From Pedobacter psychrophilus (GTDB lineage: Bacteria > Bacteroidota > Bacteroidia > Sphingobacteriales > Sphingobacteriaceae), in assembly GCF_001652725.1 (NCBI RefSeq), contig NZ_LWHJ01000027.1, forward strand, positions 186,001 to 250,000: a DNA stretch of 64,000 nt, given 5' to 3'. Below are positions 13,910 to 22,564 of this stretch, in pieces. Numbering within the stretch: the stretch's first letter is position 1; each line of letters begins with the position of its first letter. The notes under the pieces are model-generated. The model searched no databases, was not told the origin of the DNA, and worked only from the letters and a program-made list of their open reading frames with translations. The translations under genes and the position numbers were made by a program.

Positions 13910-15103
13910 ATGAATTCAGAACATCAGTTAGAAACAATTCTTCAAGATAAAAATCTCCTAGAAAACCATCGAATAATTGCCCAAAAAGTTAAGGATAATC
14001 AAAGGATTTCTTTTGATGAAGGGGTTTATCTTTTTGAAAAATGCGATTTACCATTTGTAGGAGTTCTTGCAAATTATATCCGCGAAAAGCGGCATGGAAA
14101 TAATACATATTTCAATAGAAATTTCCATATAGAACCTACAAATCTTTGTGTTTACGATTGTAAATTTTGCTCTTATTCTGTTTTGATTAAAGAGCGTTCT
14201 GAAGGTTGGGAATATACAATGGAAGATATGCTCAATATCGTAAAAAAATATGATAATGAGCCAGTTACCGAAGCACATATTGTTGGTGGGGTTTTGCCTC
14301 AATATGATATGGCTTTTTATCAGAAATTGTTTTCTGAAATTAAAAAACACCGTCCTGATTTACATGTAAAAGCTTTGACACCAGTAGAATATCACTATAT
14401 ATTTAAAAAAGCTAAAGTAGATTACGCAACTGGAATGAAGTTGATGAAAGAATCTGGATTAGAATCAATGCCAGGTGGTGGTGCAGAAATCTTTCATCCA
14501 GAAATCAGGGAGCAAATAGCAAAAGATAAGTGCAACGCTGATCAGTGGTTGCAAATACATGAAGAATGGCATAAATTAGGAATGCGTTCTAATGCAACTA
14601 TGCTTTACGGACATATTGAGCAATTTTGGCATCGTGTTGACCATTTGGAAAGACTTAGAGATTTGCAAGATAAAACTGGCGGTTTTCAAACTTTTATCCC
14701 ATTAAAATTCAGGAATCAAGATAATCAAATGTCTAATGTGCCAGAATCTACGGTAGTAGAAGATCTGCGTAATTATGCCATCTCTAGAATTTACCTTGAT
14801 AATTTTGATCATATCAAAGCTTATTGGGCTATGATAAGTAGAAGTACAGCACAACTTTCTTTAAATTTTGGTGTAGATGACATTGATGGTACTTTAGATG
14901 ATACCACAAAAATTTACTCCATGGCTGGTGCCGAGGAAAAACACCCTGCGATGAGTACAAAAGATCTTGTAAAATTGATTAAGGAAGTCGGTAAAAAACC
15001 AATTGAAAGAGATACTCTTTATAATGTAGTGACCGATTATGAAAATGTAGTTTTTGAAGATGAGGTAAAACCTAAATATTATGCTTTACCCGTTTTAAAT
15101 TAA
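13910..15103 (+). CDS. mqnE: Aminofutalosine synthase (radical SAM)
   Basis: A 397-residue radical SAM enzyme of the futalosine menaquinone pathway. The [4Fe-4S] cysteines are in NLCVYDCKFCSYS (Cys80, Cys84, Cys87). The segment AHIVGGVLPQYD and the motif NATMLYGHIE are typical of MqnE. It joins the MqnA product with SAM to make aminofutalosine. It is the first gene of a tight operon with a histidine phosphatase (4-bp gap) and mqnA (overlapping), which strongly supports the assignment over the related MqnC. Confidence 0.95.
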   Translation: MNSEHQLETILQDKNLLENHRIIAQKVKDNQRISFDEGVYLFEKCDLPFVGVLANYIREKRHGNNTYFNRNFHIEPTNLCVYDCKFCSYSVLIKERSEGWEYTMEDMLNIVKKYDNEPVTEAHIVGGVLPQYDMAFYQKLFSEIKKHRPDLHVKALTPVEYHYIFKKAKVDYATGMKLMKESGLESMPGGGAEIFHPEIREQIAKDKCNADQWLQIHEEWHKLGMRSNATMLYGHIEQFWHRVDHLERLRDLQDKTGGFQTFIPLKFRNQDNQMSNVPESTVVEDLRNYAISRIYLDNFDHIKAYWAMISRSTAQLSLNFGVDDIDGTLDDTTKIYSMAGAEEKHPAMSTKDLVKLIKEVGKKPIERDTLYNVVTDYENVVFEDEVKPKYYALPVLN

Positions 15104-15107
15104 TTTA

Positions 15108-15734
15108 ATGAGCCAAATAAAAAAGACACTTTATATTATTCGCCATGGCGAAACTGATTTTAACAAAAATGGGATTGTACAAGGTAGGGGAGTTAATTCA
15201 CAATTAAATGCTACAGGAATCGCACAAGGAGAAGCTTTTTATGAAATGTATAAAGATGTTCCTTTTGATAAGCTTTACGTTTCTAAACTTGTGCGTACCG
15301 GACAAACTGTTTCAAAATTCATCGAAAAAGGTTTGCCTGTTGAGCGGTTTTCTGGTTTAGATGAGTTAGCCTGGGGTAAATATGAAGGGCAAAAAAGTAC
15401 GCCAGAACTTCGCGAAGATTTTAAAAAATTGATTCAAAATTGGGCTCAAGGTAATTATGATGTGAAGACAGAAGGTGGGGAAAGTCCTAATGAAGTTTTT
15501 ACTCGTCAGACTAAGGCCATGGAAGAAATCATGAGCCATAAGGATGAGAAGGTTATTTTGATTTGTATGCATGGAAGAGCAATGAGGCTCTTACTTTGTC
15601 AATTAATGAATCAATCTTTAGATAAAATGGATAATTATCCACATCAAAACACTTCACTTTATGTTTTAGATTATGATGGTCAAGACTTTCATATCCAAAC
15701 ATTTAATAGTTTAGCGCACCTAAAAAATTTATGA
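15108..15734 (+). CDS. Histidine phosphatase family protein
   Basis: A 208-residue member of the phosphoglycerate-mutase-like histidine phosphatase superfamily. The phosphohistidine motif IIRHGETDFN (His13) is near the N-terminus; the second catalytic His is in ILICMHGRAMR. The region VSKLVRTGQTVSKF and acidic LDELAWGKYEG complete the pocket. It resembles CobC/GpmB-type phosphatases rather than true glycolytic mutases. It sits between mqnE and mqnA, overlapping mqnA by four bases (ATGA). This implies co-expression with menaquinone synthesis, but a catalytic role in that pathway is not established. Confidence 0.92.
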   Translation: MSQIKKTLYIIRHGETDFNKNGIVQGRGVNSQLNATGIAQGEAFYEMYKDVPFDKLYVSKLVRTGQTVSKFIEKGLPVERFSGLDELAWGKYEGQKSTPELREDFKKLIQNWAQGNYDVKTEGGESPNEVFTRQTKAMEEIMSHKDEKVILICMHGRAMRLLLCQLMNQSLDKMDNYPHQNTSLYVLDYDGQDFHIQTFNSLAHLKNL

Positions 15735-16471
15735 TTAAAATATCAGCGGTAAGCTACACCAATACCATTCCTTTTATTTACGGTTTACAACATCATCCTA
15801 TAAAAAAAGAAATTGATTTAAGTTTAGATGTACCCAGTTTATGTGCCGAAAAACTGATTGAAAACAAAGTTGATATTGGTTTAATTCCCGTAGCTGCAAT
15901 TTTAGATTTACCAGAACACCATATTATTTCTGATTATTGCATTGGAGCAAATGGAGCTGTTAACTCTGTTTTTATTTTTAGTAATTGCCCTATTGAAGAT
16001 GTTCAATATTTGCAATTAGATCCTCAATCTAGGTCTTCAAATAATTTAGCTTTGGTTTTATTAAAAAACTATTGGAAAGTAAAACCAGAATTGGTATCCA
16101 AAGCTAAAGAATACGGAAGATCTTCACATCCAAAAACCGCTTTTGTTCAAATTGGTGATCGTACTTTTGGGAAAATTAACCAACATTCTTTTGTTTATGA
16201 TTTAGCTGCAGAATGGAAAAGTTTTACAGGATTAGAATTTGTTTTTGCAGCTTGGGTAAGCAATAAAAAACTAGAAGATTCTTTTATAGATAAATTAAAT
16301 GCAGCTTTAAAGTTAGGATTAGATAGCCGATTAAAGATTTTCGAAAATATGGAAATGCGAAAAGATTTTGATTTGGTTGATTACCTAATGCATAAAATAG
16401 ATTATCGTTTAACAGATAATAAAAAAGAGGCGTTGGCACTTTTTCATAAATACATGAGAGAATTAGCATAA
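15731..16471 (+). CDS. mqnA: Chorismate dehydratase (futalosine pathway)
   Basis: A 246-residue MqnA-like protein with a periplasmic-binding-protein fold used as an enzyme. It converts chorismate to 3-enolpyruvylbenzoate, the first committed step of futalosine menaquinone synthesis. The N-terminus ISAVSYTNTIPFIYGL, the DVPSLCAEKLIENKVDIGLIP stretch and SRSSNNLALVLL are family marks. It overlaps the phosphatase gene by four bases and belongs with mqnE. There is no signal peptide, consistent with a cytoplasmic enzyme. Confidence 0.94.
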   Translation: MIKISAVSYTNTIPFIYGLQHHPIKKEIDLSLDVPSLCAEKLIENKVDIGLIPVAAILDLPEHHIISDYCIGANGAVNSVFIFSNCPIEDVQYLQLDPQSRSSNNLALVLLKNYWKVKPELVSKAKEYGRSSHPKTAFVQIGDRTFGKINQHSFVYDLAAEWKSFTGLEFVFAAWVSNKKLEDSFIDKLNAALKLGLDSRLKIFENMEMRKDFDLVDYLMHKIDYRLTDNKKEALALFHKYMRELA

Positions 16472-16511: not shown

Positions 16512-16961
16512 TTATATAACAACCTTAACTGTATCTCTACTGCAATCAATCAGGTTTTTTTCAATCTCTTTCACATCAAAAATTCCTTGTTTGTTTCCAA
16601 AAGAATTGGTGATGTAGGTAAGTATCTTAGCTAAATCAATGGATGCTAAATGTTTTTCGGCAGGCATTTTACCATCATATTGTTTCCCATTGATGGTTAT
16701 CGTATTAGAAAGCCCATAAACAATATAACAAGCCAACATTTTACGGTTAGTTTTTAAATAAGTAGTATCGCTTAAGGGAGGGATTAAACTAGCTAAACCA
16801 TTGCCATCGTCCATGTGGCAACTTTGGCAATGGTCTTTATACATTTGTAAACCATCAGAATAATAACGTTGATATTTTATACTATCCTCGTTTACACAAG
16901 CACTAAAAAATACAGTAAAAGTGATGGCTAAAAACGAAATTAAAATGATGATTTTTCTCAT
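16512..16961 (-). CDS. Mono-heme c-type cytochrome lipoprotein
   Basis: A 149-residue exported cytochrome c. The lipobox FFSAC puts the lipid on Cys22. The heme is attached at CQSCH (Cys45, Cys48, His49), and Met99 in GKMPAEKHL is the likely second axial ligand. The domain size fits a small class I cytochrome. It is the last gene of the minus-strand cluster with SCO, di-heme peroxidase and MbnP-like genes and starts one base after the SCO gene. It probably carries electrons in the periplasm for this cluster, for example to or from the peroxidase, which is inference. Confidence 0.92.
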   Translation of the reverse strand: MRKIIILISFLAITFTVFFSACVNEDSIKYQRYYSDGLQMYKDHCQSCHMDDGNGLASLIPPLSDTTYLKTNRKMLACYIVYGLSNTITINGKQYDGKMPAEKHLASIDLAKILTYITNSFGNKQGIFDVKEIEKNLIDCSRDTVKVVI

Positions 16962-16962
16962 G

Positions 16963-17610
16963 CTATTTTTTATGATATTCGGTTAATAGAATATCCATAT
17001 CTTTACTCATTTGTGCCACCTGATTTTTATCCGTTCCGTCGTAAGCACCTCTAATGCGTTTATCTTTATCAACTAACAAAAAATATCCAGAATGTTCGTA
17101 CCCGCCTGGGATGCTATCATTTTGTTTTGAATAAGACATATAACCATCTTTAGCTAACAAATAAACAGAATCTTTACTTCCTAATAAAAAGCTCCATTGT
17201 GTACCTTTAACTCCTAGTTTGTCGGCGTATTTTTTCAAAACAGGAATGGTATCATGTTTTGGGTCTATTGTATGCGAAAGAAATCTTACTTCTTGATTGT
17301 CTTTAAATTTCTCATAAACGGTTAGTAAATTTTTGCTCATGATAGGGCAAATAGATGGGCAGGAGGTAAAAAAGAAATCAGCAACGTAAATGCTATTTTT
17401 TAAAGAATCATTATTAATGATTGCACTATCCTGATTCATAAAACTAAAAGCGGGAATAGTCTGATAAACAGTATCTATAACAGTTTTGCCATTAACAATT
17501 TTTTCCACTGGTTCTCTGCTACCTAATATGGGCAATTGTTTTGGAGCTGAATTACAGGCAAATAAAAATAGTGAACCAGTAAATAAAACTAATAATGAGG
17601 GAATTTTCAT
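16963..17610 (-). CDS. SCO1/SenC-type copper chaperone lipoprotein
   Basis: A 215-residue thioredoxin-fold protein of the SCO family, which delivers copper to or reduces thiols in cytochrome oxidase CuA sites. The copper ligands are complete: FTSCPSICPIM (Cys84, Cys88) and His173 in YEHSGYF. A lipoprotein signal (FLFAC, Cys19) anchors it. It lies between the small lipoprotein gene (2-bp gap) and the cytochrome gene (1-bp gap). Together with the MbnP-like and MauG-like genes it is the main reason to see copper handling in this cluster. Confidence 0.94.
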   Translation of the reverse strand: MKIPSLLVLFTGSLFLFACNSAPKQLPILGSREPVEKIVNGKTVIDTVYQTIPAFSFMNQDSAIINNDSLKNSIYVADFFFTSCPSICPIMSKNLLTVYEKFKDNQEVRFLSHTIDPKHDTIPVLKKYADKLGVKGTQWSFLLGSKDSVYLLAKDGYMSYSKQNDSIPGGYEHSGYFLLVDKDKRIRGAYDGTDKNQVAQMSKDMDILLTEYHKK

Positions 17611-17612
17611 AA

Positions 17613-18068
17613 TTATTTCAATTTAGAAATTAAACTGTTACTGTTAGAAAGAGATTTGTTAAACATTGTTTTAACAGAATCTATTTTTATTTTTTGACTT
17701 TCTAAATATTGAGCAATTTCTTTGGAAGATTTGCCAGTATAATCTGGGTTAAAACCATTCATCCATTTCATCATGGCATCATCAGCATTAGTAAGCGCTA
17801 ATTTTTGATCAGCGATTTCTGCTTTTAATTGGGCTGTATCTAAAGAGTTATTTGCTTTTTTTAAACTATCTAAATTTGATGATAATTTAGTAAGCATCAT
17901 TCTTTTATCGGTTAATTTACCCATATCCATCATTAAAGAATCATGTACAGCCATTACTTCGGTTTGTAATTTTTTCTGCTCTGCTTTTTGATCCTTGCAG
18001 CTTGAAAAACCAATAATGGTAATTCCTAAAATGATGGTAATGCTATTTTTTATATTAATTAATGGCAT
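17613..18068 (-). CDS. Small helical lipoprotein of unknown function
   Basis: A 151-residue protein with a lipoprotein signal (GFSSC, Cys24) and then almost entirely charged amphipathic helix. Heptad-like leucines (KLTDKRMMLTKLSSNLDSLKK) suggest a coiled coil. It contains a run of Met residues (LMMDMGKLTDKRMMLTKL, DDAMMKWMNGF) that might matter for metal contact, although this is speculative. It overlaps the preceding outer-membrane protein gene by 14 bp; no other start leaves the signal intact. The family is not recognised. Its position inside the copper-like operon suggests a structural or chaperone role. Confidence 0.8.
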   Translation of the reverse strand: MPLINIKNSITIILGITIIGFSSCKDQKAEQKKLQTEVMAVHDSLMMDMGKLTDKRMMLTKLSSNLDSLKKANNSLDTAQLKAEIADQKLALTNADDAMMKWMNGFNPDYTGKSSKEIAQYLESQKIKIDSVKTMFNKSLSNSNSLISKLK

Positions 18069-19032
18069 AATAAAGTTGTTTTAAATTGTAAGTAATTCCT
18101 AAAGTTAAACGTCCGCTGCTGCGGGGATGATCTGTTTGAGCTGACCAAGCATTTGTTTGAAAACTGGTATTGATGCCGATATTTTTTACAAATATATCTA
18201 ATCCTGCGCCAGCCATTAAATTATTTGTCTCATGTTCTCCTGTTAGTTTACCTTGATATTTTTCTCCTTTGGTAAATTCATAACTAGTTTGCACAGAGGG
18301 GATGATTTTTATGTTTTTATCGATGTCAATCTTTCTAAAAACGCTAAGAAAAGAGGTGGTGCTATTTGCGATTGATTCTTGATCAGAATTTCTACCATTA
18401 AATTTATAAGTGCTGTTGATACTTGCCCCCCAATTTTTTATCCCAATAATATAATTAGCGTAAACAAAACCATCTATACTTCCTGTGCCGGGCTGAAAAG
18501 GATTAGAATAAGTTAAACCCTGATCACTTTTAACAAGATTATTTGCAGTTGGTATTTTGATTCCTGCACCGGTTATTAATCTCTGATTGATGGTTTTTTG
18601 ATCCAGTTTTCTAAGTAAATGATAACCTGCATATAAAGTTATATCGCCTAAACCAGAAATAGTAGAAGTTTGATTATTGTATTTTTCACTATTATTGAGA
18701 TAGGGAATTATCGCATTTATTTCTAAACGTTTTTGTATAAAATAGCGACCACGTATCTCGGTTGTTCTATAAATTTCATAATCGCCAAGCAACCCATTAT
18801 GATTTCCGAGTGGATTATTTGTTTGATTGGCTTGAGGGAAAAACGAACTTTCATCTGGAAAAAACTGTTGATCTTGACCAAAATACCCGTTGTATGAGCG
18901 ATATCTATAAAAAACACCTAAACTGCTCACATTATCATAAGGAGTAATTCCCATAAAACAACCACAAATATCGCAGGCAAATGTGGAACTACCGCAGAGC
19001 ATTAAAAAAATGATTAATATTTTATTCTTCAC
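18055..19032 (-). CDS. Outer-membrane beta-barrel protein with Cys-rich mature N-terminus
   Basis: A 325-residue exported protein. The signal peptide is likely cleaved at TFA/C, so the mature protein would begin CDICGCFMG, with three cysteines in the first six residues. The rest alternates aromatic and polar residues in amphipathic strands typical of a barrel (EIRGRYFIQKRLEINAIIPYL, GLGDITLYAGYHL) and ends with RLTLGITYNLKQLYYAIN. It resembles putative outer-membrane transporters of the phenol/MetA-degradation type. The cysteine cluster could bind Cu(I). It overlaps the peroxidase gene by 11 bp. The exact function is unknown. Confidence 0.82.
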   Translation of the reverse strand: MKNKILIIFLMLCGSSTFACDICGCFMGITPYDNVSSLGVFYRYRSYNGYFGQDQQFFPDESSFFPQANQTNNPLGNHNGLLGDYEIYRTTEIRGRYFIQKRLEINAIIPYLNNSEKYNNQTSTISGLGDITLYAGYHLLRKLDQKTINQRLITGAGIKIPTANNLVKSDQGLTYSNPFQPGTGSIDGFVYANYIIGIKNWGASINSTYKFNGRNSDQESIANSTTSFLSVFRKIDIDKNIKIIPSVQTSYEFTKGEKYQGKLTGEHETNNLMAGAGLDIFVKNIGINTSFQTNAWSAQTDHPRSSGRLTLGITYNLKQLYYAIN

Positions 19033-20035
19033 TGTATTTTGGATTTTTAAGAAATGTAAGATCCGTCAAAGTTTTTAAAAATGCAATGATATCCGCCTTA
19101 TAGGTATCTGTTAAAGCTAAATCTTGTTTTAAAAGTGGATCTAAATTTTTGTTAGGTTTAATATTATTTTGATAGTGATCCAAAACTTGTTCTAAAGTTT
19201 TAAAACGACCATCATGCATATAAGGGCGACTGACCTCTACATTTCTAAGCGTCGGAACTTTGAATTTACCATCATCTGATGCTAAACTTGTGATCGTTGA
19301 TCTACCTAAATCTAAAGATGTGATGTCTAAACCATTATTTCTAAAACTGTTATCAGAAAACAAAGGTTCTTTATGACAACTCGCACATTTTGCGGAAAAT
19401 AATTGATAACCCCTTAGCTCTTGATCTGTAAATTGAGCTGTTTTAGCTTTTACTTGGTCATATTTGCTATCAGCAGAAATCATCATGCCTTGAAATTGCG
19501 CCAAGGCCCTAAACATTTTTTGAGAAGTAATCTCGTCGCTATCAAATGCTTTTTGAAATGCCTGTTGATATTCTGGTTTTGATTTAAGATAAACTAAAAT
19601 TTTATTCAAATCGTTGGCCATTTCGCAAGGATCTGTCATTGCGTTTAAAGGAGCCAGCTCTAAATTGGTCACTCCACCATCTAAAAAGAAATTGTCTTTA
19701 AATGTTAAATTAAATAAAACAGGTGCATTTCTTTTGCCAAAGCAATTATCAACTCCATGGCTAGTAGCATGATCTAAGTTTCCAAAACCTGCAAATTGTT
19801 GGTGACAATCGCCACAAGAAACTGTACCATCTTTAGATAGTCCTTGATCATAGAAAAGCATTCTGCCCAAATCAAAACCTTTTTGTGTAGGTTGATTATT
19901 TGTAAATTGATAAACAGGTTGCGGAAATCCAGCAGGAATTTCTATCGATAAAAATTTATTTAAATCCTTATCCTTTGCACAAGAAATCAAGAAAATGATA
20001 CAACCTACAATTAGAAATGTGGTTATTTTTTTCAT
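19022..20035 (-). CDS. Di-heme cytochrome c peroxidase, MauG/MbnH-like
   Basis: A 337-residue lipoprotein (FLISC, Cys19) with two heme c sites, CGDCH (Cys74, Cys77, His78) and CASCH (Cys217, Cys220, His221), as in bacterial cytochrome c peroxidases and MauG. Other marks are RMLFYDQGLSKDGTVSC, RNAPVLFNLTFKDNFFLDG and VPTLRNVEVSRPYMHDGR. Family members reduce peroxide or oxidise tryptophans of partner proteins. Here an MbnP-like gene lies upstream on the same strand. In methanotrophs MbnH, a MauG relative, forms kynurenine in MbnP, so that role is plausible. A 231-bp repeat-filled gap separates the two genes. Confidence 0.93.
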   Translation of the reverse strand: MKKITTFLIVGCIIFLISCAKDKDLNKFLSIEIPAGFPQPVYQFTNNQPTQKGFDLGRMLFYDQGLSKDGTVSCGDCHQQFAGFGNLDHATSHGVDNCFGKRNAPVLFNLTFKDNFFLDGGVTNLELAPLNAMTDPCEMANDLNKILVYLKSKPEYQQAFQKAFDSDEITSQKMFRALAQFQGMMISADSKYDQVKAKTAQFTDQELRGYQLFSAKCASCHKEPLFSDNSFRNNGLDITSLDLGRSTITSLASDDGKFKVPTLRNVEVSRPYMHDGRFKTLEQVLDHYQNNIKPNKNLDPLLKQDLALTDTYKADIIAFLKTLTDLTFLKNPKYSEE

Positions 20036-20051
20036 TTGGATATTTTTAAGT

Positions 20052-20152
20052 TTCCGTCATGTTGATTCGCTAGCTAGCGAAGAAAGCATCTCACAAATAG
20101 GTTTTCAGTTAGAATGTCAACCTTATTAGTGAGATGTCTCCTGTCGTGGAAA
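20052..20152. repeat. Dispersed repeat family B, copy 1
   Basis: An intergenic inverted-repeat unit starting near GTCATGTTGATTCGC and containing GCATCTCAC and, further on, GTGAGATGTCTC. It includes the perfect 16-bp palindrome TTCGCTAGCTAGCGAA (20066-20081). Similar units lie at 28163-28263 and 51239-51339. It directly abuts a family A repeat. Confidence 0.7.
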
Positions 20153-20156
20153 TGAA

Positions 20157-20262
20157 TTTTTTTTTTGCGTTAGGGATTGAAATGGAAATCCCTGCCTGCG
20201 GCAGGCAGGCTTTTTGTTTTTACAAAAAGATTGAAATAAAAAGCCCGCCCGAACGCCCAAAT
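20157..20262 (-). repeat. Dispersed repeat family A, copy 2
   Basis: Opposite orientation to copy 1. It begins with TTTTGCGTTAGGGATTGAAA and ends with CCGAACGCCCAAATAAA. Its centre carries the hairpin CCTGCCTGC/GCAGGCAGG (20191-20209) and CTTTTTG/CAAAAAG. It lies between the MbnP-like gene and the peroxidase gene, downstream of the former, and may act as a partial terminator or mRNA-end hairpin. Confidence 0.7.
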
Positions 20263-20266
20263 AAAA

Positions 20267-21025
20267 TTAATTATGAATATGATCTAAACTAAACATCCCT
20301 TGTGCATAATTATCGGCAATAATTAAGGCAGGTAAACCGCCATGCATAGAATTGTAGGTTGCAAAAGAAATATTTTGTTTACCATTGAACATAGCAGCAA
20401 CATCTGCTTTGAAATGAATAATTGGTGATTTATCTGTTCTAATCCTCAAAATATTTGGATCAATATTAAAAGATACTTTTCTGATGGCATTAACTGTTGC
20501 CGAAGCACCGCCAATGTGGAAAATAAGATTATGATTTGCTGCTGTAGATGTTGGGGAAGTACCTTCCATTTTTACAAATACATACCCCGAATTCCAAGAC
20601 CAAAACATTGCTTTTTCTGGTGCTAAGACGCCTGTTTGTGCACCCGCAAAATTTCTTGCGGAATCTACCCCAATAGTATAGCTTATTTTTGTATAATCAC
20701 CAGCTGGCAGGTTGCTAAGGCTTGGTTTAAGAGTGCTAGCATCTGATTGGTCTATTAGAAAATAGCTTTCCGGAACATTGTATATGCTTCCATCTGCTTT
20801 TAATAGCTGAATGTTGGATACGTAATATTTAAACATATCAACTTTATATGATTCTCCTTTTGTGTTGGTATAATTCTGTGTGGTTAAAACTAAAGGTTGG
20901 TTACCAACAACGTTTTCAAATTCGAAATTTAAAGTTCCTGAACCCGTAATTTCTCCAGCGTCTTCTTTTTTACAAGACATAAATGCAACGGCAGCAATAG
21001 CCACCATCAATAATAATTTTTTCAT
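20267..21025 (-). CDS. MbnP-like copper-associated lipoprotein
   Basis: A 252-residue lipoprotein (FMSC, Cys18) that looks like the MbnP family. The recognisable order is TLNFEFENVVGNQPLVL, YKVDMFKYYVSNIQLL, YTKISYTIGVDSARN, then MFWSWNSGYVFVKMEGTS, and a late FHIGG. In methanotrophs MbnP binds copper after a tryptophan is converted to kynurenine by MbnH. Trp142 and Trp144 here lie in the conserved WSW segment and are the obvious candidates, which is inference. The gene follows a small Cys protein gene (63-bp gap) and precedes a MauG/MbnH-like peroxidase gene. Confidence 0.88.
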   Translation of the reverse strand: MKKLLLMVAIAAVAFMSCKKEDAGEITGSGTLNFEFENVVGNQPLVLTTQNYTNTKGESYKVDMFKYYVSNIQLLKADGSIYNVPESYFLIDQSDASTLKPSLSNLPAGDYTKISYTIGVDSARNFAGAQTGVLAPEKAMFWSWNSGYVFVKMEGTSPTSTAANHNLIFHIGGASATVNAIRKVSFNIDPNILRIRTDKSPIIHFKADVAAMFNGKQNISFATYNSMHGGLPALIIADNYAQGMFSLDHIHN

Positions 21026-21088
21026 TTTATTTTTATGATTTGATTTTAAAACTTTAAGAATTCAGCTAAAATTATAGCTGTTAAATAA

Positions 21089-21466
21089 TTAAGAATCAAA
21101 CGTAGGGGGAGGATGATAAAAAGAGGAGCTTTTTATATAAGAATAGTTATTTTGATAAACGCTGTTTTCTGTAACCGAGTTTAAATTAAAGAACTTAATG
21201 TGGAAAGTAGTAATCAGCATGATTTGCTGGGTAAGGTCTTTTTGGGTTTTACGTTCTTGAGATTGTTGTTGTTTTTCGGCTTCGGCAATTTTACGAGTCA
21301 AAAAACATTTCCCGTTACATTGCATTTCGGGCTTATCCTTATTGATACACAGATTTTTAGCAATGTAATCTTTATTTAGCTCGTAACCTGCAAAGTAAAA
21401 CAGCCTAGTAAAACTAGATAGACTGATAAGAAGAATGAGTAAAATGCAGGAAACCTTTTTTATCAT
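21089..21466 (-). CDS. Small membrane-anchored Cys protein, first gene of copper-like cluster
   Basis: A 125-residue protein starting at the ATG at 21466 (MIKKVSC). It has an N-terminal hydrophobic segment (ILLILLISLSSF) and then the cysteines NLC-x9-CNGKC (Cys40, Cys50, Cys54), a basic/Gln-rich helix (EAEKQQQSQERK), and a C-terminal tail YHPPPTFDS. The CxxxC and lone histidines suggest metal or thiol chemistry, but the family is not assigned to a function. A good -33/-7 promoter abuts the start codon, so the mRNA may be nearly leaderless. It heads the cluster ending at 16512. Confidence 0.78.
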   Translation of the reverse strand: MIKKVSCILLILLISLSSFTRLFYFAGYELNKDYIAKNLCINKDKPEMQCNGKCFLTRKIAEAEKQQQSQERKTQKDLTQQIMLITTFHIKFFNLNSVTENSVYQNNYSYIKSSSFYHPPPTFDS

Positions 21467-21472
21467 TTGCTG

Positions 21473-21503
21473 CAAATGTAAGTGCTAATGTTTATACTCA
21501 CAA
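21473..21503 (-). promoter_or_regulatory. Promoter of copper-like cluster
   Basis: On the minus strand TTG (21501-21503), a 20-base spacer, and TACATTTG (21473-21480) match the Bacteroidota promoter. The -7 box ends six bases before the ATG at 21466, leaving almost no 5' UTR. Confidence 0.72.
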
Positions 21504-21972: not shown

Positions 21973-22275
21973 CTACGTAAATATTTTATCTGGATTTTGA
22001 CGATTATCGAACAAAGAAATAATAAAAATTTTCTCTAAACTAGAGATAAAGAAAATGGAAGTTTGTTTAGATATTACACATTTTCGAATTGGTTTTGTTT
22101 GAGAGACGATAGGAAATTGTTCTGAAGATGTTGTAATTCTATCAATTGAATCATTTATCTTGGATATAACTTCTTTAGTAAGAATTAGACCCCAATTATT
22201 TAACAAATAGTCAATTAAGTTAGTATATTCTAAATTTGCTCTTGAAGACCAAACAACAGATTTTTTATCTGCCAT
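21973..22275 (-). CDS. RelE/ParE family toxin
   Basis: A 100-residue ParE-type toxin beginning MADKKSVVWSSRANLEYTNLIDYLLNNWG. The core WSSRAnLeytnLIDYL, a central ISKINDSIDRITTSSEQFP helix and IRKCVISKQTSIFFISS beta region fit the RelE/ParE fold. The ATG at 22275 is preferred over an earlier in-frame ATG at 22293. With it the gene overlaps the antitoxin by 11 bp. Family members poison gyrase or cleave mRNA; the target here is not known. It closely follows its antitoxin gene. Confidence 0.88.
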   Translation of the reverse strand: MADKKSVVWSSRANLEYTNLIDYLLNNWGLILTKEVISKINDSIDRITTSSEQFPIVSQTKPIRKCVISKQTSIFFISSLEKIFIISLFDNRQNPDKIFT

Positions 22276-22507
22276 TATTTTTAAAGTTGTCAAGTTTTAA
22301 ATTAATTCCTTTCATGACATCTTCATAAGTAAGAATTCTTCCTTCTTCTATATCTAAAATACCTGATTTTATACCTTCAATTTCTTTATCATTTAAATTA
22401 CCCCATTCGTTATCCAAAACTTTAAAGTTCAAACCTAATCTTTTAAATAGAGCCTTTAAAGCCGGAAGGTCTTTTTCTTTATCAATTTCTACTGTTAAGG
22501 TTGTCAT
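22265..22507 (-). CDS. Antitoxin of ParE-type module
   Basis: An 80-residue protein starting at ATG 22507 (MTTLTVEIDK). It is small and acidic, has an N-terminal TLTVEIDKEKDLPALKALFKRL half, and a C-terminal helical tail (GRILTYEDVMKGINLKLDNF) of the kind that wraps ParE-like toxins. An in-frame TTG two codons earlier is less likely to be used. TAAATTTG lies directly upstream and could be the -7 box. The downstream toxin overlaps by 11 bp. Together they form a chromosomal type II toxin-antitoxin pair. Confidence 0.85.
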   Translation of the reverse strand: MTTLTVEIDKEKDLPALKALFKRLGLNFKVLDNEWGNLNDKEIEGIKSGILDIEEGRILTYEDVMKGINLKLDNFKNNGR

Positions 22508-22564
22508 GATCAAATTTAAATAAATATTTTAAGAAGATAATTGATATTTGATTGAAAAATAATA

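Follow-up and report, generated by a model that had tools for sequence, protein, structure and literature searches.

Two described leader systems are closest to the element considered here, CutF of Rhodobacter capsulatus cutFOG (PMC9973294) and CruR of Bordetella pertussis (PMC9426467). Arrest of CruR has been demonstrated (PMC12992588), and the two leaders respond to copper in opposite directions (PMC9426467, PMC9973294). CutF-like proteins are reported in Bacteroidota in PMC9973294, where they make up 19-40% of the CutF survey list. Copper-related upstream open reading frames (uORFs) ending in RAPP or RGPP are reported missing in Bacteroidota (PMC12992588), which is consistent with the use of a different motif there. 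Conservation of the MbnP/MbnH protein pair well outside the methanobactin producers has already been described (PMC3621798). In the literature searched, copper uptake and its control appear hardly characterised in Bacteroidota, which are dominant in soil, sea and gut. Here, we analysed a stretch of 64,000 nucleotides (nt) from Pedobacter psychrophilus (contig NZ_LWHJ01000027.1, positions 186,001 to 250,000; hereafter the window), in which a minus-strand cluster at 16512-21466 begins with a small open reading frame (ORF) that we call smallC. We consider it likely that smallC is a copper-sensing arrest-peptide leader, similar to CutF and CruR, that controls a copper-acquisition and oxidase-supply operon. 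The features at the head of the cluster are:

21473 to 21503, minus strand: Bacteroidota-type promoter of smallC, with TTG at 21501-21503, a 20 nt spacer and a -7 box
21089 to 21466, minus strand: smallC, 125 amino acids, first ORF, ATG at 21466, without a Pfam or NCBIfam family
21089 to 21101, minus strand: 5' arm of a predicted hairpin, GUUUGAUUcUUAA, made of the last codons and the stop of smallC
21038 to 21049, minus strand: 3' arm of the same hairpin, UUAAAAUCAAAU, which stops 12 nt short of the mbnP ATG
20267 to 21025, minus strand: MbnP-family lipoprotein

The smallC protein has no match in Pfam or NCBIfam and is present in one copy in this genome. It carries a presumed copper-binding motif, C40-x9-C50-N-G-K-C54 (21305..21349, minus strand), and ends in HPPPTFDS, with H118-P-P-P121 (21104..21115, minus strand) lying 65 residues past the last Cys. 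Hydropathy points to a hydrophobic segment at about residues 5-23 (maximum 19-residue Kyte-Doolittle value of 2.1 at residue 5), and mbnP lies 63 nt downstream. Hence smallC has the properties by which CutF-like proteins are recognised, namely fewer than 150 amino acids, CxxxC, PP at most 15 residues from the C-terminus and a same-strand gene downstream. A profile search found the family in 100 of 248 sampled Bacteroidota genomes, and the family set consists of 199 ORFs from 199 fetched loci. CxGxC is universal in this set and all 199 members have the terminal PP, usually as FHPP, while C, C, G and C are invariant in the family alignment (A1). Two to four residues follow the terminal PP in 163 of the 199 ORFs, and the spacing from Cys to PP is 66.7 ± 2.2. 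The linker between the Cys motif and the tail, about 35 residues of which are nearly unconserved, is fixed in length and gives way to a sharp peak of conservation at (I)FHPP. The enrichment of PP is not circular, since a profile built from residues 1-66 alone recovers the same 199 ORFs; PP is found in the last 12 residues in 197 of these 199 compared to 39 of 1522 control ORFs.

In the window, the -7 box TACATTTG (TAnnTTTG, 21473-21480) ends 6 nt before the smallC ATG. Across the family, TAnnTTTG was found within 150 nt upstream of smallC at 127 of 198 loci (19 expected), and it is depleted upstream of the second gene (7 of 190, 17 expected). The motif mostly ends 4-10 nt ahead of the start codon, and transcription should therefore start at or very near the AUG; judging from this spacing, the smallC transcript is probably leaderless.

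Base pairing is predicted between the 3' end of smallC and the region around the start of the following gene. The window hairpin has a z score of -2.83, with 1 of 200 shuffles being as good. In the close relative L032, GUUUGAUU is retained despite altered last residues and an altered stop frame: the RNA string GTTTGATT and the sequence it pairs with are conserved, whereas the peptide after PP is PTV in place of the PTFDS of the window. In 166 operons, the duplex energy between the smallC 3' end and the start of the second gene averages -11.29 kcal/mol compared to -8.60 kcal/mol for dinucleotide-shuffled targets, with 32% of operons at z < -2, whereas 170 control pairs of genes taken from these loci gave -10.17 and -10.19 kcal/mol with 6% at z < -2. 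At the level of clusters the difference is significant (Wilcoxon p = 8e-9, 52 clusters at 40% identity). The signal is limited to roughly the final 30 nt of smallC with its stop and to about -30 to +18 of the second gene; in sliding 18-nt windows it lies at starts from -36 to -6 relative to the smallC end and from -36 to 0 relative to the second gene, with a peak at -24. Pairing with the operon's own target is also stronger than with the targets of other operons (-11.29 compared to -8.17, permutation standard deviation 0.16). When operons that have the same second gene and 35-50% smallC identity are compared two at a time, their own arms pair better than exchanged ones in 85% of 525 comparisons (non-independent, drawn from 99 operons), so the two hairpin arms co-vary. 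The signal is present in operons in which the second gene encodes MbnP, a TonB receptor, a barrel or a Met/His-rich lipoprotein. An Rfam scan of the gap between smallC and mbnP found no known RNA. Attenuation by intrinsic terminators as a general rule was rejected, since they are not in excess between smallC and the second gene (32 of 171 compared to 35 of 200). Separately, a perfect terminator-like hairpin, CACCGGTATC..GATACCGGTGGTTTTTTT, was observed in the gap between smallC and the TonB receptor gene in L215 and L225, which suggests attenuation in some operons.

smallC heads copper operons across Bacteroidota, and a copper-type family is present in 184 of the 199. The gene after smallC encodes a TonB receptor (63), MbnP (60), a coiled-coil lipoprotein (CCL; 21), a barrel (19), a Met/His-rich lipoprotein (16) or an Fe/Mn superoxide dismutase with a signal peptide (6), and genes for SCO, PCuAC, a heavy-metal-binding domain protein and PepSY_TM lie further downstream in many operons. 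Among operons containing MbnP, the commonest layout is smallC-MbnP-MbnH-OMC, where OMC is a predicted outer-membrane barrel. Some loci have two smallC genes, each at the head of its own gene set. As a separate observation, smallC heads the superoxide dismutase operons in L112, L114, L117, L115 and L146, which suggests a copper-sparing switch from Cu/Zn superoxide dismutase. Taken together, the architecture, its conservation across the phylum, the promoter position and the covarying pairing, as read from the sequences, point to a leader.

We propose the following mechanism, in which we infer stalling itself, copper as the ligand, the sign of the response and the MbnH chemistry. Transcription would begin at or next to the smallC ATG, and the hydrophobic N-terminus of the nascent protein would engage the Sec/signal recognition particle export path. 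At low copper, the ribosome would pause once the terminal Pro-Pro of HPPP reaches the catalytic centre. The ribosome tunnel accommodates roughly 30 residues; as 65 residues separate the last Cys from the P-site, the Cys motif would at the pause lie past both tunnel and membrane, on the periplasmic side. The paused ribosome would cover the last codons and stop of smallC, the 5' arm that otherwise pairs just upstream of the mbnP start, and the hairpin would stay open for translation of mbnP and the coupled downstream genes. When copper is plentiful, it would bind the emerging CxGxC, the pause would end, the hairpin would close and the operon would be off. MbnP, the barrel, SCO and cytochrome c would then be the proteins that bind, move and use scarce copper, and the di-heme partner probably converts Trp142 of MbnP to kynurenine by oxidation. 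Extended to the family, it is about as likely as not that smallC proteins form a single class of copper gauges throughout the Bacteroidota, leaderless, exported during translation and marked by CxGxC and FHPP. This class would join the sign of CruR, off with copper, to the start-shielding hairpin of CutF, and would in this way ration kynurenine-copper proteins of the MbnP/MbnH type, copper receptors of the TonB type, factors for oxidase assembly and a copper-sparing superoxide dismutase.

Several results weigh against the leader model. About two thirds of the operons individually fail z < -2, the pairing signal is absent from operons in which CCL follows smallC (mean z 0.11, n=20), and the comparison of own and swapped pairing gives no signal above 65% identity. 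The simple ORF caller placed a same-strand ORF upstream of smallC in 146 of 199 loci; because upstream gene order is too noisy with this caller, first-gene status was taken from the promoter motif. We found no characterisation of FHPP or HPPP as an arrest motif in the literature searched, and the CutF pause is prolonged by copper, the opposite sign (PMC9973294).

This last point leads to an alternative, which we regard as unlikely, in which copper prolongs the pause and turns the operon on for copper tolerance and not for uptake. The hairpin logic and CxxxC are as in CutF, where copper raises the downstream CutO (PMC9973294). However, the genes downstream of smallC encode TonB receptors, MbnPH, SCO, PCuAC and a periplasmic-type Fe/Mn superoxide dismutase, not efflux or a multicopper oxidase, and copper switches off CruR, the leader of a TonB receptor operon (PMC9426467). 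The off-with-copper sign is thus favoured because the genes are of the acquisition type, the superoxide dismutase is of a type that does not need copper and the MopE/CorA-type partners are copper-repressed (PMC3621798). The same conserved C-x9-C-x3-C, export-type N-terminus and near-constant company of copper genes could also belong to a metallochaperone or redox protein that works in the periplasm as part of the MbnP pathway and has the C-terminal PP as its binding tail, but a chaperone would not be expected to have a fixed-length and nearly unconserved linker with PP at the very end, a site right behind the promoter with almost no leader, or RNA pairing limited to its last codons, which makes this explanation improbable. 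We give a similarly small chance to simple translational coupling, in which the mbnP start is freed whenever a ribosome reaches the end of smallC, with no metal-dependent stalling; since the hairpin arm spans the stop codon, termination there would melt the hairpin too, but coupling leaves the invariant terminal PP, the Cys motif and their fixed spacing unexplained. Finally, a monitor of Sec or lipoprotein export (SecM/VemP/MifM-like) or a sensor of a metal other than copper would fit the hydrophobic N-terminus, the terminal proline motif and the single copy in the genome, but is very unlikely, as no sec, yidC or secDF is among the identified downstream gene clusters and the copper set recurs. 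We therefore retain the copper-sensing leader that is off with copper as the preferred explanation.

The product of 20267-21025 is a true MbnP by profile and fold. A single-sequence search of the PDB gave no match, and profile and fold searches then settled its identity: it scores 200.6 bits with PF20243 (cut-off 27), its profile search also matches Methylosinus MbnP (7l6g), and the AlphaFold2 model (21 sequences; mean predicted local distance difference test, pLDDT, 84) matches six 7l6g chains as the only hits with E<=0.001 (best 5e-9, next E = 0.1). The protein has one copy in the genome. Its W142-S-W144 (20594-20602) belongs to a WxW that is invariant in 81 sequences, and M140 and H170, both mostly conserved, align with MAWNW and VHVG of 7l6g. 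It reaches 56.6 bits with the TIGR04052 equivalog, under the NCBIfam cut-off of 140, and is therefore not filed as the methanotroph-type equivalog. The di-heme protein has the motifs C74GDCH (residues 74-78) and C217ASCH (217-221) and scores best of all NCBIfam models with TIGR04039 (MbnH), at 199.4 bits under a cut-off of 362.85. In the alignment with 6e1c, its Tyr288 falls on the Tyr of LEEVIDIY, the axial-ligand position of MauG and MbnH, and 70 of 79 relatives have Tyr there. Leu118 occupies the position of the inter-heme Trp (MauG Trp93), which is Trp in 67 of 79 relatives, and this substitution weakens the case for MbnH activity in this copy. This MbnP may bind Cu(I) in a kynurenine-dependent manner. 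In another subset of the di-heme relatives (about 8), the Trp is present and Phe replaces the axial Tyr.

The remaining features of the cluster are:

20060 to 20262, no strand: genome-wide interspersed repeat between mbnP and mbnH, with 38 matching places in the genome
19022 to 20035, minus strand: MbnH/MauG-type di-heme protein
18055 to 19032, minus strand: OMC, predicted outer-membrane beta-barrel, N-terminal CDICGC, GTG start, without a Pfam family
17613 to 18068, minus strand: CCL, coiled-coil lipoprotein, the coiled coil being the sole feature at the Pfam stage
16963 to 17610, minus strand: SCO family lipoprotein, CPSICP and distal His173, PF02630 (SCO1/SenC) 86.6 bits
16512 to 16961, minus strand: cytochrome c, mono-heme lipoprotein, CQSCH, PF00034 29.7 bits

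The original prediction had described seven same-strand genes at 16512-21466, and the ORFs, Pfam and fold results bear it out at the coordinates it gave. The MbnP assignment of 20267-21025, on which that reading depended, is confirmed by the profile score and the 7l6g fold, and that of a MauG/MbnH-like partner by CCP_MauG (169 bits), the two CxxCH motifs and the Tyr. The co-occurrence of neighbours also holds, with MbnP and MbnH adjacent in nearly all of 40 relative loci and the layout above commonest, as do the SCO ligands and the cytochrome c heme motif; both SCO Cys and His173 are invariant among 36 relatives. The outer-membrane assignment of the CDICGC protein agrees with its AlphaFold2 model (pLDDT 77), a predicted barrel whose best PDB match is 4rl8 (template modelling scores 0.62/0.74). 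The statement that methanobactin genes are absent stands for MbnB (PF05114), which has no match in the genome; MbnA and MbnC were not searched for. As for an independent system of copper uptake or oxidase supply, the theme survives, with SCO, cytochrome c, two heme-copper oxidase genes in the genome and a smallC family that elsewhere heads TonB receptor, PCuAC and PepSY operons, but the independence and novelty of the MbnPH pair do not (PMC3621798). The small Cys protein had been counted as one more structural component and is most likely a cis-acting leader peptide instead; its terminal HPPP, its promoter and the pairing between its 3' end and the start of mbnP had been missed.

CCL has conserved H42, D43, M46, M99, W102 and M103 and pairs with SCO in many operons. 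Gaps between the cluster genes are tight with the sole exception of the 231 bp between mbnP and mbnH. These two genes directly abut or overlap in most relatives and are parted here by the repeat, whose 38 genomic places share 70-100% identity and whose plus strand matches Rfam Flavo-1 at 20162-20254 (32.5 bits, below the gathering threshold of 42). The host genome is 4.0 Mb, and the nearest named relative for the locus is Pedobacter segetis (smallC 84%). By eye only, an overlapping two-gene unit at 21973-22513 (82 and 106 amino acids) has the look of a ParE/RelE-type toxin-antitoxin pair, and convergent plus-strand genes at 13910-16471 resemble futalosine-pathway menaquinone genes (MqnC/MqnE-like radical SAM, MqnA-like), which may bear on respiration.

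The new element is the first ORF as a probable leader, the MbnP/MbnH pair being already known outside methanobactin producers. If the leader model is true, one recognisable leader marks copper-acquisition operons in Bacteroidota and gives a direct route to copper TonB receptors and MbnPH systems, and it explains why a small Cys protein without a family model precedes MbnPH. It would also extend nascent-chain metal sensing to a motif, a spacing and an mRNA architecture (leaderless, without a Shine-Dalgarno sequence) not described in the literature searched, and it predicts that Bacteroidota ribosomes are arrested at FHPP.

Compared with known systems, the Methylosinus pair (7l6g, 6e1c; PMC3621798) shares the MbnP fold, the WxW and a MauG-type partner with Tyr at the axial position, and differs in that the window genome lacks MbnB, both proteins fall below the NCBIfam equivalog cut-offs and the MbnH has Leu at the inter-heme Trp position. 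OMC resembles the COG4313 outer-membrane channel 4rl8 in its predicted barrel fold, but identity is 12-13% and OMC has the N-terminal CDICGC. CruR (DUF2946; PMC9426467) likewise heads a TonB receptor/PepSY operon with a Cys pair and terminal PP at fixed spacing, and DUF2946 operons include MbnPH-like, SCO and PCuAC genes as with smallC. CruR has CXXC and RAPP 45 amino acids apart and Rho-dependent termination, whereas smallC has CxxxC and (F/Y)HPP 65 apart. Homology of smallC to DUF2946 was rejected, as PF11162 matched neither in its own genome nor in 24 family members, and hhalign against three Bacteroidota DUF2946-like proteins gave a probability of 0.14; MbnH relatives on proteobacterial plasmids provided no usable CruR comparators. 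A few genomes of the phylum have distinct leaders that resemble DUF2946, with CxxC and a tail of RGPP or RAPP (L260:1399-1794, L263:1369-1776, L268:1462-1797). At least some of them adjoin genes for TonB-type proteins or lipoproteins, even though none is reported for copper-related genes in Bacteroidota by PMC12992588. CutF (PMC9973294) is likewise a small protein with CxxxC, a terminal PP and a stem-loop over the start of the next gene, cutO, and it is exported, as smallC is predicted to be. CutF has a spacing of about 45 amino acids compared to 65 in smallC, a proline-rich motif compared to FHPP, and a stem-loop that shields the Shine-Dalgarno sequence where the smallC hairpin shields the start region. 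The protein that CutF switches on in response to copper is a multicopper oxidase, whereas smallC precedes uptake-type genes, probably with the opposite sign, and the smallC mRNA is probably leaderless, unlike that of CutF. The smallC family may be among the many Bacteroidota CutF-like proteins of the PMC9973294 survey.

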